A stretch of 64,000 nt of DNA from Actinomycetospora cinnamomea (GTDB lineage: Bacteria > Actinomycetota > Actinomycetes > Mycobacteriales > Pseudonocardiaceae), in assembly GCF_003096675.1 (NCBI RefSeq), contig NZ_QEKW01000004.1, forward strand, positions 62,001 through 126,000. The letters run 5' to 3'. Positions 1 through 24,260 of the stretch are shown in pieces. The first letter of the stretch is position 1; each line of letters starts with the position of its first letter. Under the pieces are notes generated by a model. The model was given only the letters and a program-made list of their open reading frames with translations. It made no database searches and was not told the origin of the DNA. The position numbers were made by a program, and so were the translations under genes.

Positions 1-671
1 GCAGGCACGGGCTGCCGGACCCGAGCCGGTGTGCTCTTCCGCAGCGACACGCTCCAGGCCCTCACCGAGGCCGACGTCGCCCTGCTCGTCGAGCGCATCG
101 GCCTCGAGGCCGTCATCGACCTAAGTGTCGGGCCCGAAGCCGTCGAGCAGGGTCGCGGACCGCTGGTGACCCGCGACGTCACCTACCTCAACGCCCCACT
201 GCGCAAGGCCGAGCCGAACGACGAGCCGCCCGCACGACAGGCGCTGTGGTTCTCCCTCCAGCACCTCGGAGCGCCGACCTCGGTCCTGGGGGGTGTCCGG
301 GCGGCGGCCGCGTTCGCCGGCCTGCCGACGGTGGTGCACTGCGCCGCCGGCAAGGACCGCACCGGCCTCGTCGTCGCGCTGCTGCTCGCCCTCGCCGGGG
401 TCGAGCGCGACGCCATCGGCGCGGACTACCTCCCCAGCGGACCCCACATGGAGGCGGTCATGATGCGGTTCGCGACCTGGCCGCGCTACCGCGCGCACAT
501 GGCGACCGTGGCGCCCCAAGATGTCCATGGCCCACGAGTCGACGGTGCATGGCGGGCACGACGTGCTCGACGAACGGTTCGGCGGTGCGCCGGGTCTGGG
601 CGATGACCCGCGGGATCGACGCCGCCCTGTTGGCACGCTTTCCGGAGCTCCTCACCGAGCCCACCGACTGA
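1..671 (+). pseudogene. Tyrosine/dual-specificity phosphatase, frameshifted and cut by window edge
   Basis: The reading frame is open from base 1, so the 5' end lies outside the window. The P-loop HCAAGKDRTG (about 334-363) is the CX5R signature of bacterial tyrosine phosphatases, with Cys as nucleophile and Arg binding phosphate. After 'RAHMATVAP' (about 515) the family-like sequence continues in the next frame (MSMAHESTVHG), then switches again near 583 to the third frame, where it ends 'AMTRGIDAALLARFPELL' and stops at 669-671. Two single-base shifts therefore break the C-terminal part, though the catalytic domain is intact. Real decay or sequencing error cannot be told apart here. It converges on the dikinase-like gene with a 12-bp gap. 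Confidence 0.75.
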
Positions 672-683
672 CCAGGACCGATC

Positions 684-3176
684 TCACCCGGCGAGCGCCG
701 CCCGCCCCAGTCCCAACAGCAGCGGGCGGACCTCGGGGAGGTCGACCGCGAAGCGGCGGAAGCCGAGGCCGTACAGCGTCGCCGCGACCTGGTCGGCGAC
801 CGTTCCGCTCAGTCGCACGCCCGTATCCGCGGGCACGTCACGCAGCAGGTGGACCACCACGGGATCGAGCTCGTGGCGCGGGTCGACGGCGAGCAACCCG
901 CGAGCGAGGTAGGAGTCCAGGGGCTCAGCGGTGAGGAACTGCCGGGCCGGGATGCCGAACATCGCCGCCTGGAGCGCGCGGACCTCCAACCAGACCACGC
1001 CACTGTGGGCCGCGAGCTCGGCCGCTCCCAGGACCGCACGAGGGCTCGTCAGGTAGGTGCCGACGGCCGGGGCGTCGGCGCCCTCGTCGAGGGCGGCGAG
1101 GGCCTGCGCCTCGGCCGGATCGGAGACATGGCGTACGGCGAGACGCAGACGGCCGCCGTACCCGGCGTCGCCGGCGGCGCGGACGAGCCCTTCGCGCTGC
1201 GCGCGGATCAGATCGGGAACCCCGAGGGGCAGCGCGAGCTCGGGGTGCCTGGTCGTGACCGCCGTCTGCTGGAGCAGTTCGCGGGACTCGTCGGCGAGCA
1301 GGTCGATCGCCCGGACGTCGACGTCCCGCACCTCGGCTGCCCGCGCCGCCACGAGCAGGGGCGCGAAGTGCTCGGCCACCGCGTCGCGCATCTCGGACAG
1401 CGCGCCGACGCCGTTGAGACTCTTCTCCAGGAGCGTCTCGACGAGGCGGTTGAGGTCACCTGATGCGGCGAGAACGTCGTCGATCGCGGTCACCAGGCCG
1501 GTCGCTCCGGCAGCACACGCGGCTTCGACGTCGGCTGGCAACGTCACCCGGGCCAGGACCTCGCTGCCGGCGGCGTCGGCGGCCGCGGCCAGCAGGGTGT
1601 CCATCGCCTCGTTCGCGGCGGCCGGCGTGGTCGTCGGCAAGGCTCCCGCGAAGAGCTCCCCCGACCCGCCGTCGAGCGACACCGGGTCGCCCTCGGACAG
1701 GACCCGGTTCCCGATCCGGACCGTGCGCGCCGCTTCGTCGATCTCGAGGTCGGCCGCACCGACCACGCAGGCGGTGCCGAGCGCACGAGCGACCACCGCG
1801 GCGTGGCTCGTCGAGCCGCCGGTGGCGGTGACGATGCCGGCAGCCGCGATCATCCCGTGGAGGTCCGCAGGACTGGTCACCGAACGCCCGAGGACGACCG
1901 ATGCGCCGGCGTCGGCCCGCTTGCGGGCGCGGTCCGGGTCCAGCACGAGCTCACCGGAGACCTGCCCGGGGCAGGCGCCGATGCCGGTGAGCAGCACCTG
2001 CGCTTCATCGCGGGCCGTGGCGAGGGCGTCCGGGTCGAACCCCGGGCGCTGCGCCTGCCGCAGCTGATCCGCAGTCACGAGGGTGAGCGCTCGCGCGGCG
2101 CTCGCGGTGCCGTCCGCGAGGAGGTCGGCGGCGATCCGCACGGCCGCCTCGGGCGTGCGCTTGGCGCTGCGGACCTGCAGGAAGTACAGGACGCCGTGTT
2201 CCACGGTGAACTCGATGTCGAGCACATCTCCGTGCCGCGCCTCGAGCTCCGCGCCCGTGCGCTCGAGCTCGGCCAAGAGGTCCGCGGGCAGGGCCTCCTG
2301 CACACGGTCGGGGGTGCGGACGCCGGCGACGACGTCCTCGCCCTGGCTGTGGGCGAGGTACTCGCCGTAGAGGCCGGGTTCCCCGGTGACGGGGTCACGG
2401 GTGAAGGCGACACCGGAGCCGGAGTCGTCGTCGAGGTTCCCGAACACCATGGATTGGACGACGACGGCGGTGCCCATGTCGTGCGGGATGCCGTGGTGCT
2501 CGCGGTAGGTCCAGGCCCGACGGGTGTTCCAGGAGCGGAAGACTGCCTCGACCGCGTGGACGAGCTGTTCCCACGGGGTCGCGGGCACGCTCGCGGAGAG
2601 CTCCTCGTCCAGGGCAGCCTCGGCCGCCGCCCAGACGCGGTCGTACACGGCGCCGGGGTCGTCCCCAAGGTCGGTCTCGGTCACGAGTGCGTCCACCGCC
2701 GGACGGTCGTCGAGGGCGCCGAGGACGATCTCCGAGTACATCGTGTGGAAGCGCGCGACGAGGTCGGCCATGAAGCGCGCGTCGCCCGAGCGCTGAGCGA
2801 GTGCGACCGCGGCCTCGCGGGACAGCCCGAGGTTCAAGACCGTGTCCATCATTCCGGGCATCGACACGGGCGCACCCGAGCGCACCGAGAGCAACAGCGG
2901 CTCCGGACCCGCGCCGAAGGTCTTCCCGGTCGTCGTCTCTAGTGACGAGAGCTGGCGGCGGACCTCGTCCTCCAGTCCGTCGGGAAGGGTATGACGGTCG
3001 AGGTAGACATGGCACGCGCCGGTGGTGATGACGTAGCCGGGCGGCACCCGCAGCCCGTCCCGGGTCATGCGGACCAGGCCCGACCCTTTGCCGCCGAGCT
3101 CGTCGACGTCGGCGGGGCCGTCGTCGGTGAACGCCCGCGTCCAGGTGCGCCCCGTGCCTGCCGGAGGTGCGCTCAC
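684..3176 (-). CDS. Pyruvate-phosphate-dikinase-like phosphotransferase with altered C-terminal domain
   Basis: 830 residues from a GTG that overlaps the stop of the upstream gene (GTGA), so the two are probably translationally coupled. The N-terminal ATP-grasp part has GGKGSGLVRM, VRSGAPVSMPGMMDT and FTRDPVTGEPG, typical of PPDK. The swivel domain keeps the phosphorylated His in GGSTSHAAVVARALG. The C-terminal barrel is poorly conserved: where PPDK has CGEHGG with the catalytic Cys, this protein has RLSGTVADQVAATLYG, and the FG-SRDD region reads MFGIPARQFL. The protein can probably make phospho-His from ATP, but use of pyruvate is doubtful. It is the last gene of a leftward operon with a separate swivel-domain gene, which suggests transfer to an unknown substrate. 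PPDK is the nearest family name. Confidence 0.8.
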   Translation of the reverse strand: MSAPPAGTGRTWTRAFTDDGPADVDELGGKGSGLVRMTRDGLRVPPGYVITTGACHVYLDRHTLPDGLEDEVRRQLSSLETTTGKTFGAGPEPLLLSVRSGAPVSMPGMMDTVLNLGLSREAAVALAQRSGDARFMADLVARFHTMYSEIVLGALDDRPAVDALVTETDLGDDPGAVYDRVWAAAEAALDEELSASVPATPWEQLVHAVEAVFRSWNTRRAWTYREHHGIPHDMGTAVVVQSMVFGNLDDDSGSGVAFTRDPVTGEPGLYGEYLAHSQGEDVVAGVRTPDRVQEALPADLLAELERTGAELEARHGDVLDIEFTVEHGVLYFLQVRSAKRTPEAAVRIAADLLADGTASAARALTLVTADQLRQAQRPGFDPDALATARDEAQVLLTGIGACPGQVSGELVLDPDRARKRADAGASVVLGRSVTSPADLHGMIAAAGIVTATGGSTSHAAVVARALGTACVVGAADLEIDEAARTVRIGNRVLSEGDPVSLDGGSGELFAGALPTTTPAAANEAMDTLLAAAADAAGSEVLARVTLPADVEAACAAGATGLVTAIDDVLAASGDLNRLVETLLEKSLNGVGALSEMRDAVAEHFAPLLVAARAAEVRDVDVRAIDLLADESRELLQQTAVTTRHPELALPLGVPDLIRAQREGLVRAAGDAGYGGRLRLAVRHVSDPAEAQALAALDEGADAPAVGTYLTSPRAVLGAAELAAHSGVVWLEVRALQAAMFGIPARQFLTAEPLDSYLARGLLAVDPRHELDPVVVHLLRDVPADTGVRLSGTVADQVAATLYGLGFRRFAVDLPEVRPLLLGLGRAALAG

Positions 3177-3793
3177 TCGGCCCGCTCCCGACCGAGGGTG
3201 CGCAGGAGGTCCTCGTGGAACTCGAACCAGATGTTGTGGACCGAGTCGCGCGTCGGCGAGGAGACGAGGTCGTGGTCGCCGGCGTCGACGGCCTCGAGGG
3301 CTGTGGCCAACCGGGTGGAGTACGTGGCGAAGCGGGCGTCGTGACCCGCCAGCGCGTCGATCAGCGCCTCGAGGCGGCCGACCAGGCGCTCGATCTTCGT
3401 GATCACCTTCTCGTCGTAGGCGGCGTCCGAGTGATCGTTGGTGACCTTGCGGCCACCGACCTCCACCTGCTGCCACGACGACATCGCCGCGAGGAACTGG
3501 GAGTTGGTGGTCTCGAACTTCTCGACGAGGGCCAGGACGTCGTCGTCGGCCCGGACGGGGGCATAGACCGCGGCCGCCGTGGCCGCGAGAGCAGGCTCGG
3601 CCTCGTCCGTGGGCAGAGCGGACCCTCCGGCGACGACGGCGAGGCCCTGTCCCGCCAGCCCCTCCAGACGTCCCTCGACGTCACTGGCGGGCATCGAGGT
3701 GACTGCCGCGATCGCCGTCGCGTCCGCCATCTTCTTGAGGGCCAGGACGTTGAGCACGTCGTAGTCGGGCTTGGCCAGGGTCGTGACGGTCAT
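3173..3793 (-). CDS. Unknown 206-residue operon protein, possible winged-helix N-terminus
   Basis: Start ATG at 3793 (MTVTTLAKPDYDVL), 81 bp after the stop of the interrupted 477-residue gene; the stop overlaps the GTG of the dikinase-like gene. Residues 10-55 look like a small winged-helix fold (LKKMADATAIAAVTSMPASDV, then a short hairpin with repeated Gly/Val). The rest is helical and acidic and ends VHNIWFEFHEDLLRTLGRERAE. There is no signal peptide or membrane segment. I do not recognise the family. Its position between the dikinase-like enzyme and the 477-residue protein suggests an accessory or regulatory subunit of the same phosphotransfer system; that is inference from context only. 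Confidence 0.7.
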   Translation of the reverse strand: MTVTTLAKPDYDVLNVLALKKMADATAIAAVTSMPASDVEGRLEGLAGQGLAVVAGGSALPTDEAEPALAATAAAVYAPVRADDDVLALVEKFETTNSQFLAAMSSWQQVEVGGRKVTNDHSDAAYDEKVITKIERLVGRLEALIDALAGHDARFATYSTRLATALEAVDAGDHDLVSSPTRDSVHNIWFEFHEDLLRTLGRERAE

Positions 3794-4741
3794 CGGCGTC
3801 CTCTCTCGGTCGGCCCGACCGGTGCGGCACCCCTCCGAGGGCACCGCACCGGTCAGCGGACGTGGTGCGCGGGCCTACAGCCAGCGGTACTTCGACCGGG
3901 TCGGGCTGACGCCGTCCGGGAAGGGCAGGTAACCGGCGCCCGAGAAGATCTTGCTGGGCACGGTCTCCTGCGCGAAGCCCCTCTTCGTGATGTCGTAGTA
4001 GTAGTTGGCGACGCGCTGGTCGATCTCCCACAGGTCGTAGTCGCGGCAGGCCTTCTCGTACGTCCCGGCCTTCCGCATGTGCGGGAGGATCATGTCGATG
4101 TAGTAGACGTACTGGCCGTTCCAGATCAGGTCGCGGCGGCACATCTTCGACGTCTTCGTGTAGAGCTTCAGCGTCGCGGTCTGGACACGCCCCAGGTGGT
4201 CGCCGAGGTCCTCGATCGGGATGTTGTAGACCTCGCCCATCGGCGTGTCCCACTTCTCCCGGGCGAAGACCGCCCCGCCCACCACGGCCTGCAGGTAGTT
4301 CTTCGGTCGCGTGAAGGTGGTGGAGATGTCGTTGACCCGAATCTCCTCCAGGCTCATGATCTCCGGATCGATGACCAGTGCCAGCGTGTAGACGTGCGGC
4401 AGGCCGGCGTCCTCGCACACGTCACTCCAGTGGAACACCTCCTCGTTGACGAAGAGGTCGCGCAGGATCAGCAGCTTGCCGTCGGGCAGCTCGTAGGGCC
4501 CGGTGTCGCCGAGCCCGAGTCGGCAGTCGTAGTGGTCGAGGAACGCGAGCAGCTCGGCGGCCGCGTTGTACTGGTTGAACGCTCCGTGCTCCGGTCCGTC
4601 CGGGTCGAGCTCCTCGACCTGGTTGACGATCGAGTCGAGGAAGTCCTGGTCGTGGATGCGGCAGCGATAGCGGTCCTGCGAGTTGAGGATGTAGCCGTCC
4701 TGCCGCTTGCCCCACAGGACGCGCTGCATGAACTTGAGGAT

Positions 4742-4767
4742 TGAGGTTGGCCCCTGGCACCGGACAC
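4742..4767 (+). repeat. IS3 element left terminal inverted repeat (orfB side)
   Basis: 26 bp starting TGAGGTTGGCCCCTGG and ending CCGGACAC; the exact reverse complement is at 6001-6026. Preceded by the GAT target duplication at 4739-4741. Confidence 0.95.
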
Positions 4768-4780
4768 CGACGGTGTGGGG

Positions 4781-5617
4781 TCAGTGATCTTGACTGGGCC
4801 TGGTGTGGCGGGCTTCGTAGTCCAGCGGGCTGAGCATCTCGATGCTGGAATGGCGCCGTTTGGGGTTGTACCAGCACTCTATCCATTCGAATATCGCGTT
4901 GGCAAGTTCTGCGCGGGTCTTCCAGGTCCGTGCATCGAGTAGCTCGAGTTGCATGGTACCCCAGAAGGACTCCATCATCGAGTTGTCGTAGCAGTCACCG
5001 ATCGAGCCCATCGACCCGAGCAGCCCGGCGGCTTGCAGGCGTTGCCCGAACGCCCATGAGGTGAATTGCGAGCCGTGGTCGGAATGCATGATCGTGGAGT
5101 TGGCTGGAGTCGGGCGCCGGCGGGTGATGGCCATGCCGAGGGCGTCGGTGACCAGCGCGGTGCGCATGTTGTCATCGATGGACCACCCGATGATTCTTCG
5201 CGAGTAGGCGTCGAGGACCGCCGCGCAGTACAGCTTGCCCTCGTCGGTGCCGTGTTCGGTGATGTCGGTGAGCCACAGCTGATCCGGTGCCTCAACGTTG
5301 AAGCGGCGCTCGACCAGGTCGGGGTAGGGGTCGGCAACGGGGTCGCGGACGGTGCAGCCGCGGTGTCGGCGCCGGTAGAGGCCTTGGATGCCGGCCTCGC
5401 GCATCAGGCGGGCGACCCGTTTGTGGTTGACCGCCAGGCCCAGGCCGAGGGTCAGCTCGGCGTGCACGCGCGGCCAGCCGTAGGTGTCGCGGGACTCCTC
5501 GTGGATCTTTTCGATGTGCTTGAGCAGCAACTCGTTCTCCTGCGCGCGGGCAGACTTCGCTCCCGCGAGCCATTCGTAGTAGCCCTGACGCCGAACATTG
5601 AGCACCCGACAGGTCAC
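4781..5617 (-). CDS. IS3-family transposase OrfB, DDE integrase core
   Basis: 278 residues from the GTG at 5617. The frame is open up to the orfA overlap at about 5673 and reads VVFPLVRELADDGFDVAV before this point, so the natural product is probably OrfAB made by -1 frameshifting. The core has an HTH_21-like segment (DTYGWPRVHAEL), then the retroviral integrase fold with Asp in LWLTDITEH, Asp in HSDHGSQFTS and Glu in SMMESFWGTMQ, followed by the typical YNPKRRHSSI end. The DDE triad is complete. The stop lies just inside the left repeat. Confidence 0.95.
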   Translation of the reverse strand: MTCRVLNVRRQGYYEWLAGAKSARAQENELLLKHIEKIHEESRDTYGWPRVHAELTLGLGLAVNHKRVARLMREAGIQGLYRRRHRGCTVRDPVADPYPDLVERRFNVEAPDQLWLTDITEHGTDEGKLYCAAVLDAYSRRIIGWSIDDNMRTALVTDALGMAITRRRPTPANSTIMHSDHGSQFTSWAFGQRLQAAGLLGSMGSIGDCYDNSMMESFWGTMQLELLDARTWKTRAELANAIFEWIECWYNPKRRHSSIEMLSPLDYEARHTRPSQDH

Positions 5618-5664
5618 CGCGACGTCGAAACCGTCGTCGGCGAGTTCACGGACCAGCGGGAAGA

Positions 5665-5967
5665 CTACTTTGGGAGGACGTTCTCCCGCGCGAAGTAGGC
5701 CGCTGCGCGCTTGAGTATCTCCTTTTCGACCTCGAGGCGACGCTTGTCTTTGCGCAGCTCGGCGAGCTCGGCGCGCTCTTTGCTGGTCAACCGATCGGTG
5801 TTGGTGCCGTCATCGGCGTCGGCCTGGGCCATCCAGTTCCGCAGACACGACTCAGAGATTCCGAGGTCCTTGGCGATCGCGGCGACCGGCTGCTCGCCAC
5901 CCTTGCGAGCCAGCTCGACGGCACGACGCCGGAACTCCGGTGGGTGAGGTGCGGGCACGAACGACAT
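5665..5967 (-). CDS. IS3-family transposase OrfA, helix-turn-helix
   Basis: 100 residues. The N-terminal HTH_Tnp_1-type domain reads PPEFRRRAVELARKGGEQPV, then AIAKDLGISESCLRNWM. A Lys/Glu-rich helix with heptads (SKERAELAELRKDKRRLEVE) follows, the leucine-zipper-like multimerisation region seen in IS3 OrfA proteins. The last codons before the TAG (5665-5667) contain CCCAAAG on the minus strand (5668-5674), a plausible slippery heptamer. Slipping back one base continues directly into orfB, as in the programmed -1 frameshift known for this family. Confidence 0.93.
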   Translation of the reverse strand: MSFVPAPHPPEFRRRAVELARKGGEQPVAAIAKDLGISESCLRNWMAQADADDGTNTDRLTSKERAELAELRKDKRRLEVEKEILKRAAAYFARENVLPK

Positions 5968-6000
5968 CCTCCCTGGTGGACCGGGTCCACCTCAGCTGAC

Positions 6001-6026
6001 GTGTCCGGTGCCAGGGGCCAACCTCA
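6001..6026 (-). repeat. IS3 element right terminal inverted repeat (orfA side)
   Basis: 26-bp perfect reverse complement of 4742-4767. Followed by GAT at 6027-6029, the second copy of the target duplication. On the minus strand its first three bases (TGA) form the premature stop of the interrupted gene. Confidence 0.95.
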
Positions 6027-6679
6027 GATCTCGTTGGACTCCTCGACGTACTCGTCGGGCTTGATCGCCTCGAGGGCGAGCAGGCCACAGCGGCCCATGC
6101 CGAAACCGACCGCGCCGATGCACCAGTCGTGCACCGCGTTGACCTTGGTGCCGATCTCGCGGCGCGCCGACGCCCCGATGTCCATGATCCCCTGGGCGCC
6201 GCCGACGGCCTCGGTGGTCATCGCCATGAGCTCCGGCCACCGGTAGAACTCGTGCATGAAGGCCAGGATTTCGTACTCCTGGCGGGGGATCATGCCGGAG
6301 ACGCCCTCGGTGGCCCGCATGACGAGGACGTCCCAGATGTTCCAGGCGAGGTAGTTGTTCAGATCGTTGAGCTCGTCGATCGTGAAGCGGTCGCGGAGGA
6401 CGTCCTCCTTCGAGACCCTCTCCAGCACGCCGGACTTGGCGCGCGACCGCATCATCTTGTCGCCCTTGATCCCGTCGGTGACGGGCTCCATGCCGACGAA
6501 GTTGCCGGTGTAGGTGAGGTCCTGGAAGCGGAGGCCGTCGTCGCCCTCCTCGTAGCGCTGGCGGAAGGTCGCGCGCTTGCCCTCGGTCGTGGTCACTGTG
6601 CTGTCAGCTCCTGGCGTGATCGATGGTCGGCTGGGCGTCGGCTGGCGCCGGCTGGTCGCGGTGCTCCTCGGCCGGCCGC

Positions 6680-7097
6680 TTACACCGCCACCACCCGCCC
6701 GGTCACGTGATCCGTGCAGTCGAGCCGGACCTGCTTGCCGTCGAGCTCGCGGGCGATCTCCTCAAAGTGAGCCTCGTCGGTGGAGCCGACGACGTAGCGC
6801 GAGTCGCTGCTCGTCAGGTGGGCCGTCATGACGCAGGGGGTCTGGAACTCGCGCGAGAGGATGCCGAGGGTGCGACTCGGGCGCACCGGACATCGTGATC
6901 ACGCCGATGGCGCCCATGCTCAGCGCCGGTGCGAGGAACGTCGTCGTCCCGCCCCGCACCAGGAGGATGTGTTCCTTGAGCTTCCCGGACTGGATCAGCT
7001 GGATCACGTCGGACGGCGACGACAGGTACTTGACCGTCCCCGACGGGGACTTGGACGTGTCGAAGACGTTGTAGCCCTCGGCGAGGACGTCGGCCAT
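6680..7097 (-). pseudogene. Stand-alone PEP-utilizing swivel (phosphohistidine) domain protein, frameshifted
   Basis: Starts at ATG 7097 after GAGGAGGAA and reads MADVLAEGYNVFDTSK, then ILLVRGGTTTFLAPALS and GVITMSGAPESH. At about 6870 the family sequence moves to another frame (LGILSREFQTPCVMTAH, ending DHVTGRVVAV, stop 6680-6682). One extra C after the His codon (CAC C CTC) explains this. Corrected length is about 138 residues. The ESHLGILSREF stretch matches the TSHAAIVAREL motif of PPDK and PEP-synthase mobile domains, so the His would carry the phosphoryl group. A free mobile domain is unusual; it is the first gene of the operon. The frameshift falls in a short C run, so a sequencing error remains possible. 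Confidence 0.75.
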
Positions 7098-7429
7098 GGA
7101 GTTCCTCCTCGAACCCGTGAGGTGTGCGGGCGGGGCTCAGCTCGATCGACTGTTCCTCCGCGCGTTGCCCAGGTCACAGTGCCCTGGATCACTTCACGGG
7201 CCGAGGGAGGGCGCGGACAAAAGACGTTCCTGAGGTTGTCTGGGTCGGATAGGAGCGCCGTCCGCCGCCCGTCCGCCGCCCGCAGGTCGAGCTCGTGCCC
7301 AGTCCTCAGGGCCCGCAGACCGGCTCGAGGCCGGAGCTGAACTGCCTCGCTCCCCTGGGACTTCTCCTCCGGACCTGATGGCCGGCGGCCTCGAGCCGGC
7401 TGAGCAGTGCACGGCGAGGTCCGCTGCCG
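7098..7429. other. Non-coding stretch upstream of the phosphotransferase operon
   Basis: No convincing coding frame. The part just upstream of 7097 should hold the operon promoter, but I see no clear -35/-10 pair. 7240-7430 is GC-rich and degenerate and may be remains of neighbouring genes. Confidence 0.4.
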
Positions 7430-7709
7430 TCAGCTGGGGGCGCGGGAGCGGGCGATGACGACGACGGGCTTCTCGAGCAGGAGGAGGAGGTGTCCGCAGT
7501 TCTCCAGCACCTCGAGGGTGTAGCCCCGATGGAACTGCGGCAGAGCCGCGGCGCTGAGCGGGCACTGCGGGGTCGTGGGAGGCCCAGAGCACGCTGGTGG
7601 GGATGATGCTGCGGTCGTGGCCGGCTGTGGTCCAGAATTGCGCGCGCCAGGTTGGCGCGGTCGTCGTGGAAGCCGCTGTCAATGTGGTCGTGGTGCCGAT
7701 GCGCGCCAC
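7430..7709 (-). pseudogene. Alpha/beta-hydrolase C-terminal remnant
   Basis: Minus-strand translation gives IIPTSVLWASHDPAVP, matching the acidic-residue strand of alpha/beta hydrolases (…LWGxxDxxxP). After a one-base shift near 7545 it continues LSAAALPQFHRGYTLEVLEN, then CGHLLLLLEKPVVVI, with the catalytic-His motif GH followed by a pocket helix, and stops at 7430-7432. The upstream two thirds of the gene, including the nucleophile elbow, is missing. This is a decayed fragment with no expected product. Confidence 0.6.
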
Positions 7710-7847
7710 ATCACTCGGGTGTGCCTGCGTCAGGGCTCTGGCCAGAGCGGCGGTTCTCGTCGGAGCAACCGGGCACCGCTCCTTCTCGTGTCACACCACC
7801 GCCGAGATGAGCTCGCACGCGTCGGAGCGTTTGCGCAGGTCACAGTA

Positions 7848-7892
7848 GGTGGAGACGAAGGGAATCGAACCCTCAACCCCCGCCTTGCAAAG
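7848..7892 (-). repeat. attL-like copy of the tRNA-Ala 3' end
   Basis: 45 bp identical to 24186-24230, which cover the last 43 nt of tRNA-Ala(TGC) (anticodon loop through discriminator) plus 2 flanking nt. The 5' half of the tRNA is absent here. Weaker similarity continues leftward to about 7790 (compare 24128-24185, including AGCGTTTGCGCAGGTCAC). A tRNA 3'-end duplication in direct orientation is the hallmark of site-specific integration. Confidence 0.85.
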
Positions 7893-7905
7893 ATGGGCGA
7901 TCACG

Positions 7906-8010
7906 TTGACCAGGGCCTCTACCATCGACAACAGTCTCTGCGAGACGCTCACCAACCTCGTCGTGCACTCCGTTGCACCCCATCTCGTGTCACGCGACGT
8001 GTCATGACCC
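7906..8010. repeat. Dispersed island repeat, copy 1
   Basis: Starts GTTGACCAGGGCCTC and ends TCTCGTGTCACGCGACGTGTCA. Related in order and spacing to 10999-11109 (GTTGACCAAGGCCTC ... TTTCGTGTCACGCGGCGTGTCA), with divergence in between. Shorter pieces of the terminal motif occur at about 7786 and 24116. Function unknown. Confidence 0.5.
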
Positions 8011-8315
8011 CGAGGCAGGAACACGTCCTCGCACCCGGGATCGAGGCAGTCAGGACGGAGTGCTCGAGCGCCAGCTCGACGGTTCGGTCGTGGCCGAAGA
8101 ACACCGTGGCCAGGACGCGGGCGGACACCCCGTCACGGTCTTCGAGGAGCACCTGCTCGGGCCGGACCACCACCAGGGCTGGACCGGTGACGCCGTCGGG
8201 GGTGCCAGCGAGAGCCGGCCCAGCGCGCACTCGCCGTGTCGCCGTCGAGTGTTCCGTCGAGCACGACCGCATCGCCGACGAACGTTGGCGACCCGACCGT
8301 CGCGCATCACCGCGA
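7980..8315 (-). pseudogene. ABC-transporter ATPase C-terminal (TOBE) remnant
   Basis: In one minus-strand frame about 8285-8225 reads TFVGDAVVLDGTLDGDTASA, like the start of the C-terminal regulatory region of spermidine/iron-type importer ATPases. After a frame change, about 8190-8040 reads VVRPEQVLLEDRDGVSARV, then VFFGHDRTVELALE, which matches the VRPE...ARV...GHD pattern of TOBE_2 domains. Walker motifs are absent and the frame is broken, so this is a fragment. It lies just inside the left edge of the island. Confidence 0.55.
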
Positions 8316-8405
8316 CGTCACCGGCGAGCGACGCTGGCGAGACGCCCCACGCCTCGCCTCGGGGCCCTGGCAGGGGGCTGGGACGTTTCCGGGCATCCTC
8401 GCCGC

Positions 8406-9470
8406 ATGTCCGGGTCCGAGGAGATCACGCGCCGGCGTCGCAAGCGGCTCGCGGACGAGTGTGCCGAGGCGCGGGTCTACCGCGATCTGGCCGCGCGGCG
8501 GTCCTCGGCGGACGAGCGCGAGATACTGCTCGGCCTCGCTGAGGCCGAGGAGCGGCATGCCGCGCACTGGCAAGCGCTGCTGGGCGACGAGGCGGGTCCG
8601 GCACCGCGTGGTGACGTGCGGCTGCGGCTCCTCGCGCTGCTCGCCCGGAACTTCGGCTCGGTCTTCGTGCTCGCTCTCGCGCAGCGCGCGGAGCGTCGTG
8701 CCTCTCGGGATGCGGCCGACGACGTCGACACCACCCCAGCCATGGTCGCCGACGAGCGCGTGCACGAGGAAGTGGTGCGCGGGCTGGCCGCCCGCGGCAG
8801 GGAACAGACATCGGGCACCTTTCGCGCTGCGGTCTTCGGCGCCAACGACGGACTGGTCAGCAACCTCGCCCTGGTGATCGGGGTCAGTGGCGGTGGCGTG
8901 GCTGCAAGCACGGTGCTCCTGACCGGCCTCGCCGGCCTCCTCGCCGGCGCGCTGTCGATGGGCGCCGGGGAGTACATCTCCGTTCGTTCTCAACGGGAGC
9001 TGCTCGAGGCATCGGCACCGGACCCGGCCTCGCGACGAATCGTCCCCGACCTCGACATCGAGGCCAACGAGCTCGCCCTCGTCTATCGCGCACGCGGGAT
9101 GAGCACCGAGGACGCGCAGAGGCAGGCCGAGGCCGTGCTCCGGGGCGCGGAAGCCCGGCCCGACCCCACCCCCGACCCGCGCCACGAGGTCGTCGGCACC
9201 GGGGTCGGCGCGGCGCTGTCGAGCTTCGCCTTCTTCGCCTCCGGCGCGGCGGTCCCCGTCCTGCCGTTCCTCGTCGGCCTCGAGGGACTTCCCGCTCTGG
9301 TCACGGCCATGGTGCTCGTGGGCCTCGGGCTCCTGCTGACCGGCGCGACCGTCGGGATCCTGTCAGGAGGACCACCGCTGCGGCGGGGACTGCGCCAACT
9401 CGGCATCGGCGCCGGCGCGGCCGCGCTCACGTACCTCCTCGGCCTGCTCGTGGGCGGGACCATCGGCTGA
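8406..9470 (+). CDS. Ferritin-like/VIT1 fusion, membrane-bound iron or manganese transporter (MbfA type)
   Basis: 354 residues from ATG 8406. Residues 1-60 form a ferritin-like helical pair with metal-ligand-type Glu/His (ECAEARVYRDLA; LAEAEERHAAHW). Residues about 135-354 are a CCC1/VIT1 domain: TFRAAVFGANDGLVSNLALV, GALSMGAGEYISVRSQRELL, then a cytoplasmic segment and three hydrophobic stretches ending AALTYLLGLLVGGTIG. In MbfA-type proteins the ferritin-like part senses or binds Fe/Mn and the membrane part exports it, protecting from metal and peroxide stress. The gene is complete and monocistronic within the island, unlike the broken genes to its left. Metal specificity cannot be read from sequence. 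Confidence 0.9.
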   Translation: MSGSEEITRRRRKRLADECAEARVYRDLAARRSSADEREILLGLAEAEERHAAHWQALLGDEAGPAPRGDVRLRLLALLARNFGSVFVLALAQRAERRASRDAADDVDTTPAMVADERVHEEVVRGLAARGREQTSGTFRAAVFGANDGLVSNLALVIGVSGGGVAASTVLLTGLAGLLAGALSMGAGEYISVRSQRELLEASAPDPASRRIVPDLDIEANELALVYRARGMSTEDAQRQAEAVLRGAEARPDPTPDPRHEVVGTGVGAALSSFAFFASGAAVPVLPFLVGLEGLPALVTAMVLVGLGLLLTGATVGILSGGPPLRRGLRQLGIGAGAAALTYLLGLLVGGTIG

Positions 9471-9538
9471 GACTCCGTCCAGCGCAGGGCCGCGGAAGCA
9501 CGTGGCGAAGGTGAGCTCCACGTCGCCGAGCTGTCGTG

Positions 9539-10465
9539 TCACCCGGGAGCCGAGGGGACGTGCCCGGCAGGAGTGGTCGGCGCCCGGAGCACGACGTCGT
9601 CGTAGCGGGCGCCGACGGCGGCCGCGGGGTCGAGCAGATCCCACGTCTGCATCCAGGCATGCGACCGCTCGAACATGTCGCGGGTGTAGGGCTGGGGCAC
9701 GACGCGCTCGCCCGGGCCGAAGCGCCGGACGTCCACGAGGTCGAGGAGGTCAACGGGCATCTCCCGCGCCCAGTAGTGCGTGTAGCGCTGCGGCTCGAGG
9801 TCGATCTCCTGCTGGGCGCGCAGGAGGGCACGGAAGTAGCGCCCGATGTCCTGGGTGTCCGCGTCCGGGGAGAGAAAGAATCCCATCACGAACGTCGTGT
9901 CAACGATCTTCGGGCACCCGCGCTGCTCGAGGACGTAGGCGCCGGCACCCCACGCGTTCACCGCGGTCAACCTGCCGTCGAGCAGCAGGCGGACCCGGTC
10001 GAAGGGCCGCCCGACGAACGCCAGCGCGATCTCGCTGCGCGGGAGGAACGGCTCGAGGCCCTGCAGAGCCGAGTAGTGGCTGCCCGAGTGATAGCCCACG
10101 CCCACCTCGACCCCGGCCAGGTCGCGGGGCTCCCGGACGCCCGCGCCGGGGGCGACGTAGATGCCGGCGGGACACACCGAGTAGGCGTCGCCGTACATCC
10201 GGCCGTGGTGCTCGGTGGCGGCCGCGTTGACCGCCCAGTGGCAGGCGCTCGAGACCTCGGCGGAGCGTCCCGCGGCCATGTCCTCCAGGGCGCCGCTGCG
10301 CACTTCGGAGGGCGCCTCGTCCTCCCTCGCCACGCTGCTGCTCCCGCCCGCGAAGCCGGCCGGCTCGAAGACGTACTCCAACCCCTCCGCGGCGAAGAAG
10401 CCGTGCTCCTCGGCGACCCACTCATGCAGCCGGACGTGCGGCTGGATACGGAATACCACCCTCAT
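9539..10465 (-). CDS. Orphan NMT1/THI5-type substrate-binding domain protein, no signal peptide
   Basis: 308 residues from ATG 10465 (MRVVFRIQPHVRLHEWVAEE); upstream in-frame codons look non-coding. The start resembles periplasmic-binding-protein-like II domains (HEWVAEEHGFFAAEGLEYVF), followed by GALEDMAAGRSAEVSSACHW, then YVAPGAGVREPRDLAG and GYHSGSHYSALQGL. There is no lipobox or hydrophobic leader and no permease or ATPase gene next to it, so it is likely cytoplasmic. It could be a ligand sensor, a decarboxylase-like enzyme of this fold, or a stranded transporter subunit. It converges on the VIT1 gene. Ligand unknown. Confidence 0.7.
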   Translation of the reverse strand: MRVVFRIQPHVRLHEWVAEEHGFFAAEGLEYVFEPAGFAGGSSSVAREDEAPSEVRSGALEDMAAGRSAEVSSACHWAVNAAATEHHGRMYGDAYSVCPAGIYVAPGAGVREPRDLAGVEVGVGYHSGSHYSALQGLEPFLPRSEIALAFVGRPFDRVRLLLDGRLTAVNAWGAGAYVLEQRGCPKIVDTTFVMGFFLSPDADTQDIGRYFRALLRAQQEIDLEPQRYTHYWAREMPVDLLDLVDVRRFGPGERVVPQPYTRDMFERSHAWMQTWDLLDPAAAVGARYDDVVLRAPTTPAGHVPSAPG

Positions 10466-11167
10466 CGCCCCTCTCACGGCTCGGTGACGTGCCCGCTCAG
10501 CGTGCGGCCGCGACGCGTGCCTCCGCCAGGGGTGCCGTCGGGTCGCCATGGCGTGCGCGCTCGACGGGCGCGCGACCGGACCAGGTCGCCGATCGGGCCG
10601 TTACGTCCGACACGTGGACGTTCATCCCCGCACGAACTCGCCCGTCGGCGAGTGGTCCACCTCCCGGGCTGGCGGCTCTGCCCCTGACCGGCGGAAGGAC
10701 CCCCAACGCCGCGTGCAGGACCCGAGGAGGACGACCTGGTCCGCGACACGGACCGCGATGTCGTCGCCGAGTGGGGACGACCGCCGTCGATGACCGGAGC
10801 GCCGCCGCGAGGTGGCGATCTGCCCCCGAGATCGCGACAAATCCGGTGCCTCGGTCAACACCGTCAAGACCGATCAGCGTGCGATGCACAGAAGCGCGGT
10901 CCGCTGACCGGCGAGGCGCCCTCACCCACGCCCAACGCCTCGGCCTGCCTGAGGTCGCTCTGCAGGCTCCGGCGTGCCGACTGCCGTCGACGTCGACCGC
11001 GTTGACCAAGGCCTCAACCGGCGACAACGTTCCTGCACGGCGCCTTGCGGTGCTCCTGGGGCAACATCGTTGACCCTCGTTTCGTGTCACGCGGCGTGTC
11101 ACGTGATCGAGGAGTCGACGAGCTCGAGACTCCGCCAACGTCAGATCCGCCTCGGCTCGCGTCTCGC
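10466..11167. other. 702-bp gap with repeat copy 2 and no clear gene
   Basis: No frame shows a recognisable family. Minus-strand pieces such as LADGRVRAGMNVHVSDV (about 10600-10650) look like old coding sequence but change frame. The right part (10999-11109) holds the second copy of the dispersed island repeat. Confidence 0.45.
10999..11109. repeat. Dispersed island repeat, copy 2
   Basis: Begins GTTGACCAAGGCCTCAACC and ends TTTCGTGTCACGCGGCGTGTCA; related to 7906-8010 at both ends. It lies immediately downstream of the TetR gene. Confidence 0.5.
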
Positions 11168-11800
11168 TCACTGCGCCGCGGCGGCGACGAGCTTCATGAG
11201 TGTGTCGGCGAGTTCGTCGAGAGCACGCTCCCGTGCCTCGCTCTCCAGCCCGCCGCACCACAGCGGTGCCTGGGCCATCGCGGCGTGCATGCACTGCAGC
11301 GTCGTGTCCACCCCGGTGACCGCGAAATCGCCGGAGGCCAGGCCCTCCTCGAGAACGCCGCGGAACACCTGGTCGTGGCGCCGGCGCAATTCCTTGATGC
11401 GCTCGCGCGGGTCGGCGGGCCAGGTGCTCGGCACGAGGAAGAGCCGTAGCGCGGCCGGGTACTCGCCGACCGCGATGGCGACGTGCTCACGGAGGAGGGC
11501 ACGCAGCCGCTCGTGGGGCGAGCCCTCGACCGTCGCGGCCAGCCGCTCCAGGCGGCCCGTCCAATCGGCGCCGAGCGTCTCGATCGCCGCCACGGCCAGC
11601 TCGTCCTTGCCGGGGAAGTAGTAGTAGAGCGACCCCTTGGTGACGTCGAGCCGTTCGGCGACGTCGTCGAGGCTCACCGCGTCGTACCCGCGCTCGCCGA
11701 ACAGCTCGGCGGCCGTGGCGAGGATCTCCTGGACCCGGCGTCCCCGCTTGCGCTGCACACGGCTGACCGGCGCAGCGACCTCCACCGGCTGACTGCTCAT
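11168..11800 (-). CDS. TetR-family repressor of the island CoA-degradation operon
   Basis: 210 residues. The N-terminal HTH has RVQEILATAAELFGERGYDA, then VSLDDVAERLDVTKGSLYYYF and PGKDELAVAAIE, typical of TetR regulators of fatty-acid or aromatic-CoA catabolism (FadR/KstR2/PaaR-like). The C-terminal helical ligand domain (about 65-205) contains APLWCGGLESEARERALDEL. It is divergent from the 11927 operon across a 126-bp gap containing two inverted repeats, the usual arrangement for a local repressor released by an acyl-CoA ligand. Ligand identity is inferred from the operon only. Confidence 0.88.
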   Translation of the reverse strand: MSSQPVEVAAPVSRVQRKRGRRVQEILATAAELFGERGYDAVSLDDVAERLDVTKGSLYYYFPGKDELAVAAIETLGADWTGRLERLAATVEGSPHERLRALLREHVAIAVGEYPAALRLFLVPSTWPADPRERIKELRRRHDQVFRGVLEEGLASGDFAVTGVDTTLQCMHAAMAQAPLWCGGLESEARERALDELADTLMKLVAAAAQ

Positions 11801-11847
11801 CGGTCCTCCTCGTCCATGCCCACAGTGTCTCGATCACTGATCTATGA

Positions 11848-11883
11848 GTCAAATCCTGACCAGTCTATTGACTACTGGGTCAA
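11848..11883. promoter_or_regulatory. Candidate TetR operators in the divergent promoter
   Basis: Two inverted repeats lie between the TetR gene and the first operon gene: GTCAAATCCTGAC (11848-11860, half-sites GTCA/TGAC) and TTGACTACTGGGTCAA (11868-11883, half-sites TTGAC/GTCAA). They sit in an AT-richer stretch that should carry both promoters. Binding is inferred. Confidence 0.5.
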
Positions 11884-11926
11884 AGTTTGTCACGGTCTTC
11901 AACCAGACACACTGAAGGGGCACCAC

Positions 11927-13087
11927 ATGGACTTCGAGCTCACCGAGACGCAGCGCGAATACCGCGACCGTGCTCGCGGCATCGCCGAGAAGGAGCTGCT
12001 GCCCGGCTACCAGGCAAGGGAGCGCAACGGGCGCATCGACCCCGAGCTCCGCCGTGAGATCGGCCGGCTCGGCCTCATCGCTCCGGAGCTGCCGACGGAG
12101 CTCGGCGGCCGAGGTCTGGACCGACTCACCGCCGGCGTGGTCACCGAGGAGATCGGCCGGGGCGACATCAACGTCGCCTACCTGCAGGTCGTGGGTTCGC
12201 TGGTCGGCCAGATCCTCGCCGGCAACGCGACGCCGGAGATCGCGCAGGCGTGGGTACCGCGGATCTGCGCCGGAGAGGAGATCGTCGGGATCGGGCTGAC
12301 CGAGCCCCAGGCGGGGTCGGACGCGGGCATGCCGGCGCTCACGGCCCGCCGCGACGGCTCCGGGGACGAGGCCGACTGGGTGCTCGACGGCGTGAAGTCC
12401 CTGTCGTTCGCCGGGGACGCGGCGGCGGTCGTCGTGTTCGCCCGGACCGGACCATCACAGTCCCGGGGCAAGGACATCAGCGCCTTCCTGGTACCGCTCG
12501 ATGCGCCCGGTGTCTCCCGTGAGCCGTACTCCGACATGGGCACGACGGCGGTCGGCCGGGGAGCGGCCCACCTCGACGCGGTGCGCATCCCCGCCGACCA
12601 CCTCCTGGGCGCGGAGGGCCGGGGCTTCACCCAGGTGATGCAGGGGTTCGACTTCAGCCGCGCCCTCATCGGACTGCAGTGCCTCGGGTGCGCGCAGCAG
12701 ACCGTCGACGAGACGTGGCGCTACGTGGGCGAGCGCACCGCCTTCGACCGGCCGCTGAGCAAGAACCAGGGCGTGGCGTTCCCGCTGGCCGAGGCCGAGA
12801 CGCTGCTGTCGGCGGCGCGGTTGCTGTGCCTGCGGACGCTCTGGCTCAAGGACGTCGGTCGACCCCACACCGCGGACGCCGCGATGAGCAAGTGGTGGGC
12901 CCCGAAGATCGCCTACGACGTCATCAACCAGTGCCTGTTGCTGCACGGCCAGTACGGCTACCGCACCGAGCTCCCCATCGAGCAGCGCCTGCGCGACGTG
13001 CTCGGGCTGCAGATCGGCGACGGCACCGCCCAGATCATGAAGCTCATCATCGCCCGGCAGTACCTGGGCCGCGAGCTCGCACCGTAA
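11927..13087 (+). CDS. Acyl-CoA dehydrogenase, first gene of operon, with Asp at the usual catalytic Glu position
   Basis: 386 residues from ATG 11927 (MDFELTETQREYRDRARGIA), preceded by GAAGGGG. Family features: GLTEPQAGSDAGMPALTA (FAD/substrate loop), AFDRPLSKNQGVAFPLAE, and LHGQYGYRTELPIEQRLRDV. The C-terminal motif that reads YEGT in MCAD-type enzymes is IGDGTAQIMK, putting Asp where the catalytic Glu usually lies. Acyl-CoA dehydrogenases acting on cyclohexane and cyclohexene carboxyl-CoA are known to depart from the usual base, so an alicyclic substrate is possible but unproven. It would oxidise an acyl-CoA to the 2-enoyl-CoA with FAD and pass electrons to ETF, which is not encoded here. 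Confidence 0.9.
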   Translation: MDFELTETQREYRDRARGIAEKELLPGYQARERNGRIDPELRREIGRLGLIAPELPTELGGRGLDRLTAGVVTEEIGRGDINVAYLQVVGSLVGQILAGNATPEIAQAWVPRICAGEEIVGIGLTEPQAGSDAGMPALTARRDGSGDEADWVLDGVKSLSFAGDAAAVVVFARTGPSQSRGKDISAFLVPLDAPGVSREPYSDMGTTAVGRGAAHLDAVRIPADHLLGAEGRGFTQVMQGFDFSRALIGLQCLGCAQQTVDETWRYVGERTAFDRPLSKNQGVAFPLAEAETLLSAARLLCLRTLWLKDVGRPHTADAAMSKWWAPKIAYDVINQCLLLHGQYGYRTELPIEQRLRDVLGLQIGDGTAQIMKLIIARQYLGRELAP

Positions 13088-13125
13088 AGACACCCCGATA
13101 TCTCGAGGAAGGACCAGGAAGAGCC

Positions 13126-13872
13126 ATGGGCAAGCTGCAGGACAAGATCGCGATCGTCACCGGTGCGGGACAGGGCATCGGCCGAGGCATCGCCGAGAAG
13201 CTCGCCGCCGAAGGCGCCACGGTCGTCGTGACCGACATCAACGAAGCGACGGCGAAGGAAACGGCCGACGCTCTGGGCGGAGGCGCGATCGGGCTGCACA
13301 CCGACGTCACCTCCCGCGAGTCGGTGGACGCGATGGTCGCCCAGGCCCACCAGCAGTTCGGGCGGATCGACGTCCTGGTCAACAACGCGGGCTGGGACAA
13401 GGTGGGGCCGTTCGTCGACTCCGACCCCGCCGACTGGGACCGGGCCATCCAGATCAACCTCTACGGCGTCCTGAACACCTCCAAGGCCGTACTCCCGATC
13501 ATGGCGGAGCAGGGCTCAGGTTCGGTCGTCAACCTCGCCTCCGACGCGGGCCGGGTCGGGTCCTCGGGTGAGGCGGTGTACTCCGCGGCCAAGGGCGGGG
13601 TCATCTCGTTCACCAAGACCACCGCGCGGGAGATGGCCCGCCACCAGATCAACGCCAACTGCGTGTGCCCCGGCCCGACCGACACGGCCCTGTTCGCCTC
13701 GGTCACCCAGGACAACCCCAAGCTGCGCGACGCCCTGATCAAGGCGATCCCGCTGCGCCGGCTAGCGCAGCCGGCGGACCTCGCCAACGCCGTCGCGTTC
13801 CTCGCCTCCGACGAGGCCGCCTACATCACGGGCCAGACGCTGTCGGTCAGCGGCGGCCTGTCCATGAGCTGA
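13126..13872 (+). CDS. SDR dehydrogenase, BadH-like 2-hydroxycyclohexanecarboxyl-CoA dehydrogenase
   Basis: 248 residues from ATG 13126, preceded by AGGAAGAG. Classical SDR layout: TGAGQGIGRGIA (NAD-binding Gly motif), Asp after beta-2 (VVTDINEA; predicts NAD), NNAG at about 84, catalytic Ser in VNLASDAGRVGSSGEAV and YSAAK for Tyr/Lys. NNAGWD, SDAGRVGSSGEAVY, GPTDTAL and the ending GQTLSVSGGLSM closely match what I recall of Rhodopseudomonas BadH, which oxidises 2-hydroxycyclohexane-1-carboxyl-CoA to the 2-keto form. This is the strongest clue to the operon's substrate. FabG-type reductase is a less likely alternative. Confidence 0.85.
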   Translation: MGKLQDKIAIVTGAGQGIGRGIAEKLAAEGATVVVTDINEATAKETADALGGGAIGLHTDVTSRESVDAMVAQAHQQFGRIDVLVNNAGWDKVGPFVDSDPADWDRAIQINLYGVLNTSKAVLPIMAEQGSGSVVNLASDAGRVGSSGEAVYSAAKGGVISFTKTTAREMARHQINANCVCPGPTDTALFASVTQDNPKLRDALIKAIPLRRLAQPADLANAVAFLASDEAAYITGQTLSVSGGLSMS

Positions 13873-13901
13873 CCGTGCCGGAGCGAGGAGGAGAACCGAC
13901 C

Positions 13902-15095
13902 ATGACGGATCTGGCCCACGACTACCTCGACCTCGACGGCCTGTTCACGACCGAAGAGCTCGAGCTCCGCGACCGCGTGCGCGCGTTCGTGCAGGAGCGC
14001 ATCAGGCCCCACATCGCCGAGTGGTACGAGAACGCCCAGTTCTCCCGCGAGATCGCCCGGGAGATGGGCAAGGCCGGCCTGCTCGGCATGCACCTGAGCG
14101 GGTACGGCTGCGCCGGCCGCAGCGCCGTCGAGTACGGCCTCGCGGCCATGGAGCTCGAGGCCGGCGACTCCGGCCTGCGCACCTTCGTCAGCGTGCAGGG
14201 ATCGCTGGCCATGAGCGCGATCCACAAGTTCGGCTCCGAGGACCACAAGCAGCGCTGGCTGCCCGGCATGGCCGCCGGGGAACTCATCGGGTGCTTCGGG
14301 CTCACCGAGCCGGGCGCGGGCAGCGACCCGAGCAGCATGACCACGCACGCCGAACGCGTCGACGACGGGTGGGTGCTCCGCGGAGCCAAGCGCTGGATCG
14401 GCCTCGCCACGATCGCGGACGTGGCCGTCATCTGGGCGAAGACGGACGAGGGCGAGGGGGCAGCATCGATTAGGGGGTTCCTGGTCCCCGCCGACACCCC
14501 CGGGTTCTCCGCCACCGCGATCGAGCCCAAACTCGGGATGCGCGCCTCGATCCAGGCCGAGATCACGCTGACCGACGTCCGGCTCCCCGCCGACGCCGTG
14601 CTCCCCGACGCCCGGGGATTGCGCGGGCCCTTCTCCTGCCTCAACGAGGCGCGCTACGGGATCATGTGGGGCGCCATGGGCGCGGCGCGCGACGCCTACG
14701 AGGACGCGCTGGCCTACGCCCTCGAGCGTCGCCAGTTCGGCGTCCCGATCGCCGCGTTCCAGCTGACCCAGCAGAAGCTCGTCGACATGGTGCTGGAGAT
14801 CCAGAAGGGCATCCTGGTCGCGCTGCAGACCGGACGGCTCAAGGACGCGGGGACGCTGCGTCCCCAGCAGATCTCGCTGGGCAAGCTGAACAACGTGCGC
14901 GAGGCGATCGCCATCTGCCGGGAGGCGCGCACGGTGCTCGGCGGCAACGGCATCACCCTCGACCACTCCCCGCTACGCCACGCCAACAACCTGGAGAGCG
15001 TGCGGACCTACGAGGGCACCGACGAGGTCCACACCCTGATCATGGGCGCTGCCATCACCGGCATCCCCGCCTTCAGTGCGGGACCCCCATCATGA
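13902..15095 (+). CDS. Glutaryl-CoA-dehydrogenase-type acyl-CoA dehydrogenase with substrate Arg conserved
   Basis: 397 residues from ATG 13902, preceded by GAGGAGGAGAA. GCDH-like motifs: GYGCAGRSAVEYGLAAMELE, then SGLRTFVSVQGSLAM, where the Arg aligns with the one that binds the distal carboxylate in glutaryl-CoA dehydrogenase; GCFGLTEPGAGSDPSSM; and VRTYEGTDEVHTLIMG with the catalytic Glu. It therefore probably acts on a dicarboxylic acyl-CoA such as glutaryl-CoA or pimeloyl-CoA; decarboxylation cannot be proved from motifs. The TGA overlaps the ATG of the next crotonase gene (ATGA). Confidence 0.88.
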   Translation: MTDLAHDYLDLDGLFTTEELELRDRVRAFVQERIRPHIAEWYENAQFSREIAREMGKAGLLGMHLSGYGCAGRSAVEYGLAAMELEAGDSGLRTFVSVQGSLAMSAIHKFGSEDHKQRWLPGMAAGELIGCFGLTEPGAGSDPSSMTTHAERVDDGWVLRGAKRWIGLATIADVAVIWAKTDEGEGAASIRGFLVPADTPGFSATAIEPKLGMRASIQAEITLTDVRLPADAVLPDARGLRGPFSCLNEARYGIMWGAMGAARDAYEDALAYALERRQFGVPIAAFQLTQQKLVDMVLEIQKGILVALQTGRLKDAGTLRPQQISLGKLNNVREAIAICREARTVLGGNGITLDHSPLRHANNLESVRTYEGTDEVHTLIMGAAITGIPAFSAGPPS

Positions 15096-15868: not shown

Positions 15869-15873
15869 CGACG

Positions 15874-24185: not shown

Positions 24186-24230
24186 GGTGGAGACGAAGGG
24201 AATCGAACCCTCAACCCCCGCCTTGCAAAG
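24186..24230 (-). repeat. attR-like repeat inside tRNA-Ala
   Basis: 45 bp identical to 7848-7892: 43 nt are the 3' part of the tRNA gene and 2 nt lie beyond its end. Mismatches begin at 24185 on one side and 24231 on the other. Confidence 0.85.
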
Positions 24231-24260
24231 GCGGTGCTCTGCCAATTGAGCTACGTCCCC
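24188..24260 (-). tRNA. alaT: tRNA-Ala (anticodon TGC)
   Basis: Read on the minus strand from GGGGACGTAGCTC to CGTCTCC-A. The anticodon arm CCGCC-TTTGCAA-GGCGG gives TGC, and the T arm contains GGTTCGATTCC. The acceptor has the G3:U70 wobble pair that identifies tRNA-Ala. CCA is not encoded. The 3' part serves as the island attachment site. Confidence 0.96.

Follow-up and report, generated by a model that had tools for sequence, protein, structure and literature searches.

In phenylphosphate synthase of Thauera, the functions of a dikinase are split over several subunits and the phosphate acceptor is not pyruvate. In Sterolibacterium denitrificans, a tertiary alcohol is phosphorylated by a single ATP/ADP-using enzyme, the 25-hydroxysteroid kinase, and the phosphate is then eliminated by the 25-phosphosteroid lyase (PMC7411048, PMC8449060, PMC11061730). 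The transfer potential of the tertiary phosphoester has been measured to be high, in the range of ATP (PMC8449060). 2-Methyl-3-buten-2-ol may undergo isomerisation to prenol in Methylibium petroleiphilum PM1 and Aquincola, through enzymes that were uncharacterised by 2016 (PMC4791888), and the title of a paper cited there states that MdpJ forms 2-methyl-3-buten-2-ol from tert-amyl alcohol. Many types of bacterial microcompartment have no known signature enzyme (PMC8217296, PMC4207490). One of them, the MIC1 metabolosome, was described in 2014 as being without a signature enzyme and as containing an aldehyde dehydrogenase, lactate/malate-type and zinc-type alcohol dehydrogenases, a hydrolase, a phosphatase and an MreB-like protein (PMC4207490, Axen 2014). 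Here, we describe a four-gene operon at the left end of a 64,000-nucleotide stretch of the genome of Actinomycetospora cinnamomea (contig NZ_QEKW01000004.1, C4:62001-126000), hereafter the window. It encodes a stand-alone phosphohistidine ("swivel") subunit, a large subunit, a winged-helix-like subunit and a dikinase subunit related to pyruvate phosphate dikinase (PPDK). On comparison of the sequences, we give a marginally better than even chance to the reading that these proteins would form one ATP-dependent alcohol-phosphorylating enzyme feeding a microcompartment pathway.

The original prediction, made from the letters of the window, had proposed an unrecognised phosphotransfer operon of several subunits, one of them a free phosphohistidine domain, and the operon is conserved in relatives. 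The set comprises 61 loci (labelled L), 60 from named genomes and one from a Rhodococcus plasmid, all found through the large protein. The four genes occur in identical order and on the same strand in 53 of them, a count of intact co-occurrence with the swivel and dikinase genes that was taken from the side of the large protein, the 206-amino-acid winged-helix-like protein not having been searched for independently. In L027, L032, L056 and L064 the contig ends inside the large gene or at most about 45 bases after it, and in L066 the swivel gene and the beginning of the large one are missing. A Rieske oxygenase gene is found nearby in L039, L052 and L062, whose available stretches contain no dikinase gene; L052 retains the gene for the 206-amino-acid protein. 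A full-length dikinase relative, 47% identical to that of PM1, lies on the same contig as L039, about 10 kb before the large gene; elsewhere in the genomes of L052 and L062, the dikinase matches are all shorter than full length. L056 comes from a metagenome record titled Klebsiella pneumoniae, in which the large gene has 67% identity, and the title may reflect a binning error. The hosts of the operon include Pseudonocardia, Amycolatopsis, Gordonia, Bradyrhizobium, Methylocella, Xanthobacter and Acidimicrobiia, and a profile of the large protein matched two of 399 genomes of one order, one of the two being the starting genome. No description of the operon was found in titles and abstracts of the open-licence literature, the only kind covered.

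The dikinase subunit (684..3176, minus strand) is an open frame of 830 amino acids with an ATP-grasp domain, its own phosphohistidine domain and a degenerate C-terminal barrel. It matches the Pfam families PPDK_N and PEP-utilizers, and the alignment of its family profile with PPDK (1kbl) runs over the whole length. Residues were counted in 22 sequences picked from the window and from loci with a dikinase; the positions were mapped by reading the alignment, and their functional roles are those that we assume for PPDK. As in PPDK, five ATP-site residues and the catalytic phosphohistidine (six positions) are invariant in all 22 sequences. Unlike in PPDK, the pyruvate-site residues R561, E745, N768, D769 and C831 are lost in 22/22, and three further conserved subunits are encoded alongside. 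Among other barrel positions, R617 is kept in 22/22, D620 in 13/22 and R748 in 10/22. Because the ATP site and the histidine are kept and the pyruvate-site residues are lost, the subunit should charge its histidine from ATP but make no phosphoenolpyruvate (PEP), and a plain pyruvate dikinase is rejected on the same residue counts. The dikinase scores 550.5 bits against NCBIfam TIGR01828, under the equivalog cut-off of 843, and passes the shorter model NF004531 (500.6 against a cut-off of 456).

The swivel subunit carries an SGAPESHLGIL-like motif with a histidine that is invariant in 21/21 aligned relatives, and the intact swivel gives weak matches to PEP-synthase-type models only. The large subunit, 477 amino acids long when intact in relatives (e.g. 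L010), has many invariant residues. It matches no family in Pfam or NCBIfam beyond chance hits, as does the 206-amino-acid protein, so that both are without a known family, as originally stated. The sequence profile of the large protein gave nothing among PDB sequences except one chance hit at E 0.91. A fold search of the PDB with a fairly confident model of the L010 protein (pLDDT 81, pTM 0.85) gave no match with E < 1. The winged-helix-like subunit (3173..3793, minus strand) is an open frame 88% identical to its relative in L013; its Methylibium relative matches MarR_2 below the cut-off. In Rhodococcus opacus B4, the order within a single protein of 793 amino acids is swivel, large domain and winged helix, the last of these being matched weakly by TrmB, also below the cut-off. 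Because the three parts are fused in this protein, it argues that swivel, large domain and winged helix would work as one enzyme. On the R. opacus B4 plasmid (L072), in the region 1960-16428, the fused gene is clustered with a P450, dehydrogenases and two small-molecule kinase-like genes, and the dikinase of this cluster, at 570 amino acids, is too short for a barrel. Three distant paralogues of the large protein, accompanied by swivels, occur on a Rhodococcus pyridinivorans plasmid (L073, 7236-20762), where one paralogue operon runs on into biotin/lipoyl and biotin carboxylase genes. These paralogues suggest that split dikinases form a larger family whose members differ in substrate.

Shell genes of a microcompartment lie beside the operon. 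In the genome under study, they occupy C4:51424-59762, the nearest being 2.2 kb left of the window edge with further genes of the locus in between. PF00936 matches at C4:51424, 56231 and 59152 and a PF03319 match at C4:59520 are all above the cut-off. The locus also contains relatives of a GAF/PucR regulator, a zinc alcohol dehydrogenase, a lactate/malate-type dehydrogenase and EutJ, and further an aldehyde dehydrogenase, a DUF7064/7065 protein and a HAD phosphatase. The aldehyde dehydrogenase is closest to CoA-acylating models, below their cut-offs. This gene content resembles the 2014 description of MIC1, a likeness drawn from the published text only. Of the 61 loci, 49 have one or more shell genes, and five of the 12 without any are stretches under 14 kb. 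The DUF7064 and HAD genes are adjacent in 53/61 loci. The phosphotransfer operon of the original prediction stands; not noticed in it were the microcompartment, the two partner proteins (DUF7064 and HAD) and the signs of a tertiary alcohol. A second, separate set of shell genes with two PF00936 matches and one PF03319 match is present at C3:363291-364129.

The HAD protein has a C-terminal extension of 84-169 amino acids in all 47 microcompartment loci, the genome under study included, and of 12-51 amino acids in seven of eight non-microcompartment loci. The tips of the long tails are mostly amphipathic, with a mean moment of 0.659 compared with 0.376 after shuffling, a value reached by 0/300 shuffles of the microcompartment-locus tails, and a motif pattern matches 34 of the 47. 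When C-terminal ends were compared in the same way, the swivel, large and DUF7064 proteins gave no comparable length difference between microcompartment and non-microcompartment loci. The HAD tail is encapsulation-peptide-like and would be a putative shell-targeting signal. Because the tails are long in microcompartment loci and short in most others, the HAD phosphatase probably resides inside the shell, where its substrate would enter as a phosphate ester.

In a PDB search with the predicted structure of the DUF7064 protein (pLDDT 91.7), the five top-ranking matches were all to the 25-phosphosteroid lyase (E 9e-11 to 1.6e-9, TM about 0.64). This suggests that the DUF7064 protein is a putative lyase for tertiary phosphate esters. 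The likeness to the S. denitrificans system lies in this lyase fold and in the proposed logic of phosphorylation followed by elimination; in contrast to the single steroid kinase, the system proposed here would use a split dikinase, act on a small substrate and be tied to a microcompartment. A dikinase that converts ATP to AMP would suit an energy-rich tertiary phosphoester. The DUF7064 partner at L049:7209-8207 has a weak resemblance, under the cut-off, to the Rv3169 family of NCBIfam.

When the neighbours are listed, the operon is found among catabolic genes, and six neighbourhoods together with PM1 are the basis for proposing a substrate. In L050, which extends into the longer stretch L096, genes for an alcohol dehydrogenase, a CoA ligase, an aldehyde dehydrogenase, a pair of carboxylases resembling those of L069, a CitE-like protein and a CoA-transferase are followed on the same strand by the DUF7064 and HAD genes and then by the operon, from swivel through large and winged-helix to dikinase. 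A gene between the carboxylase subunits (L096:6047-7156) is biotin synthase-like by eye, which would fit a biotin-dependent carboxylase. In L069, the dikinase gene is followed by two carboxylase genes and by genes for a hydratase, matched by the gamma-carboxygeranoyl-CoA hydratase model, and an HMG-CoA lyase, both with scores over the respective cut-offs. This set has no neighbouring acyl-CoA dehydrogenase gene, and an acyl-CoA dehydrogenase-like gene is found next to the second such set of the strain. From the gene order, the carboxylases of L050 and L069 are named here as putative 3-methylcrotonyl-CoA carboxylases. L049 has an HMG-CoA lyase gene upstream on the opposite strand. Hydratase matches in L035 and L032 (31-35%) were taken as ordinary crotonases. 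The shell-less loci L043, L049 and L069, as well as L096, encode a benzyl-alcohol-dehydrogenase-like enzyme, an aldehyde dehydrogenase and a CoA ligase, and benzyl alcohol dehydrogenase is the closest named solved structure of the L049 alcohol dehydrogenase.

The Rieske oxygenases of L039, L052 and L062 are 57-62% identical to the Rieske protein of the PM1 plasmid, which we take to be MdpJ, the PM1 record saying Rieske protein only. Within about 25 kb of this gene, PM1 has homologues of DUF7064 (up to 73%), the winged-helix protein (up to 61%), the dikinase (up to 46%), the swivel (up to 43%) and the large protein (33%). The PM1 plasmid shares the DUF7064 and four-subunit homologues near a Rieske gene with our loci, but its parts are split over two clusters, and the annotation of the stretches examined includes no shell gene. 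The neighbours in six relatives suggest a tertiary C5 alcohol, perhaps 2-methyl-3-buten-2-ol, which would be converted to prenol. Acetone, glycol and phenol had been considered first as substrates and were set aside on the ground that the neighbours do not suggest them; no excluding test was made.

In the proposed pathway, the dikinase would charge its own histidine from ATP in the cytosol, and the phosphate would pass to the histidine of the free swivel and then to an alcohol held by the large subunit, the order of this relay being inferred. The DUF7064 protein would break the tertiary C-O-P bond with allylic transposition to yield either prenol directly or prenyl phosphate. The HAD phosphatase with its shell-targeting-like tail would then remove the phosphate inside the microcompartment, and the zinc alcohol dehydrogenase and the CoA-acylating-type aldehyde dehydrogenase would convert prenol via prenal to 3-methylcrotonyl-CoA. 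That the acceptor is an alcohol appears likely, and that the alcohol is a tertiary one moderately probable, whereas for 2-methyl-3-buten-2-ol itself the chance may fall a little short of even. The complete scheme, in which a two-histidine four-subunit dikinase makes an energy-rich tertiary phosphoester from 2-methyl-3-buten-2-ol and a lyase-fold enzyme converts it to prenyl phosphate, which passes the shell and is dephosphorylated inside, is tentative, possible rather than probable.

Several observations weigh against this interpretation. The DUF7064 protein shares only 14% identity with the 25-phosphosteroid lyase, its profile matched no PDB sequence at E 1, and AttH and pericyclases of the same general fold rank behind the lyase, so that the fold serves multiple functions. 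The tertiary-alcohol kinase of S. denitrificans is a different, single enzyme. As for the HAD tails, the eighth non-microcompartment locus (L054) has a tail of 138 amino acids with no shell gene on its short stretch, and the microcompartment tails of L061 and L063 show no helix-like tip by eye. The L050 and L069 carboxylases match general NCBIfam carboxylase models only, below the cut-off. Genes like those of the 3-methylcrotonyl-CoA pathway lie near only three of the 61 loci (L049, L050, L069), none of which has shell genes, and the available stretches of the 49 shell-bearing loci contain no 3-methylcrotonyl-CoA-carboxylase-like genes. Relatives of MdpJ were sought in 29 host genomes, of which 18 gave some match, with 58-63% identity reached only in the three loci already known. 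Finally, L028 has 2-hydroxyisobutyryl-CoA-mutase-like genes, which would fit a C4 tertiary diol.

Such a C4 tertiary diol is a fair rival substrate. The same enzyme could act on, for example, 2-methylpropane-1,2-diol, which after phosphorylation and elimination of the phosphate would yield an enol and from it isobutyraldehyde, and would then serve the microcompartment as a B12-free diol dehydratase. Many metabolosomes begin with an aldehyde-forming signature enzyme (PMC8217296), and the three loci with MdpJ-like neighbours and the mutase-like genes of L028 also fit C4 tertiary alcohols, as does the absence of carboxylase-like genes from the stretches of the shell-bearing loci. However, the carboxylase sets of L050 and L069 are not needed for isobutyraldehyde, and the alcohol dehydrogenase of the shell-less clusters, being nearest to benzyl alcohol dehydrogenase, fits an allylic or benzylic primary alcohol. 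We regard the diol pathway as unlikely. It is improbable that the operon encodes a counterpart of phenylphosphate synthase, phosphorylating a phenol, another aromatic compound or an enol for carboxylation. The two share the split-dikinase design with a separate phosphohistidine domain and a non-pyruvate acceptor, here a proposed one, and on the R. pyridinivorans plasmid, the distant paralogue set continues into a gene for biotin carboxylase. However, this operon has four subunits, two phosphohistidine domains and shell and lyase-fold partners; the lyase-fold partner, the phosphatase and the shell genes do not fit such a carboxylation route, and the only intact neighbourhood with an annotation has no gene annotated as a phenylphosphate carboxylase, other loci not having been searched. 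A regulatory phosphorelay that controls the microcompartment genes without metabolising a substrate is slightly less probable still: the winged-helix-like subunit and a GAF/PucR-type regulator gene matched in 10/61 loci would fit it, but the operon also occurs in shell-less catabolic clusters with dehydrogenases and a CoA ligase, the large subunit is rich in invariant residues and the winged helix can be fused to the swivel and large domain.

The reading of the four proteins as an alcohol-phosphorylating enzyme offers a definite set of genes, open to testing and carried by cultured environmental strains, for two gaps, namely the signature enzyme and the isomerisation of 2-methyl-3-buten-2-ol. 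The set includes a large, highly conserved protein without an annotated family or a recognisable PDB fold. The operon would also be a case of a phosphoenolpyruvate-type dikinase acting on tertiary alcohols, matching the high transfer potential reported for a tertiary phosphoester (PMC8449060). If the complete scheme is true, it would represent a new class of organelle-coupled alcohol activation and encode both the enzyme sought for the conversion of 2-methyl-3-buten-2-ol to prenol and the signature enzyme that one type of metabolosome has lacked so far.

The four leftward genes named in the original prediction are all present in the window, with the swivel gene frameshifted and the large gene cut by an insertion sequence (IS). 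Because the window proteins are 74-97% identical to those of Actinomycetospora congeners, their frames are not chance ones. The swivel gene (6680..7097, minus strand) has a frameshift at about 6870-6880; the match to the congener swivel in L011 is split between two frames, at 93% over 7097-6870 and at 85% over 6880-6683. The N-terminal part of the large gene (6027..6596, minus strand), comprising the first 190 codons, is 95% identical to the L010 protein over residues 1-190 of the latter, and the C-terminal part (3875..4741, minus strand) is 96% identical to it over residues 188-477. Between them lies an IS3-like element (4742..6026, minus strand), with its type judged by eye, GAT on both sides and transposase-like frames at 5665-5967 and 4781-5617. 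Elsewhere in the genome, the element has a related copy of full length (88%) and several partial ones. The large protein has a single match in this genome, and four of 17 other genomes of the genus carry it at 94-97% identity.

A tyrosine-phosphatase-like gene (1..671, plus strand), convergent with the operon, enters the window from the left edge and is damaged at about 515-595. It is 79% identical to the L012 protein up to residue 203 of the latter and then runs out of frame; a similar gene is present in 15/61 loci. Because the IS in the large gene and the frame change in the swivel gene are joined by this third lesion, the operon copy of this strain is probably inactivated. tRNA-Ala(TGC) genes are predicted on the same strand at 7848-7920 and 24186-24260 of the window, the first just upstream of the operon.

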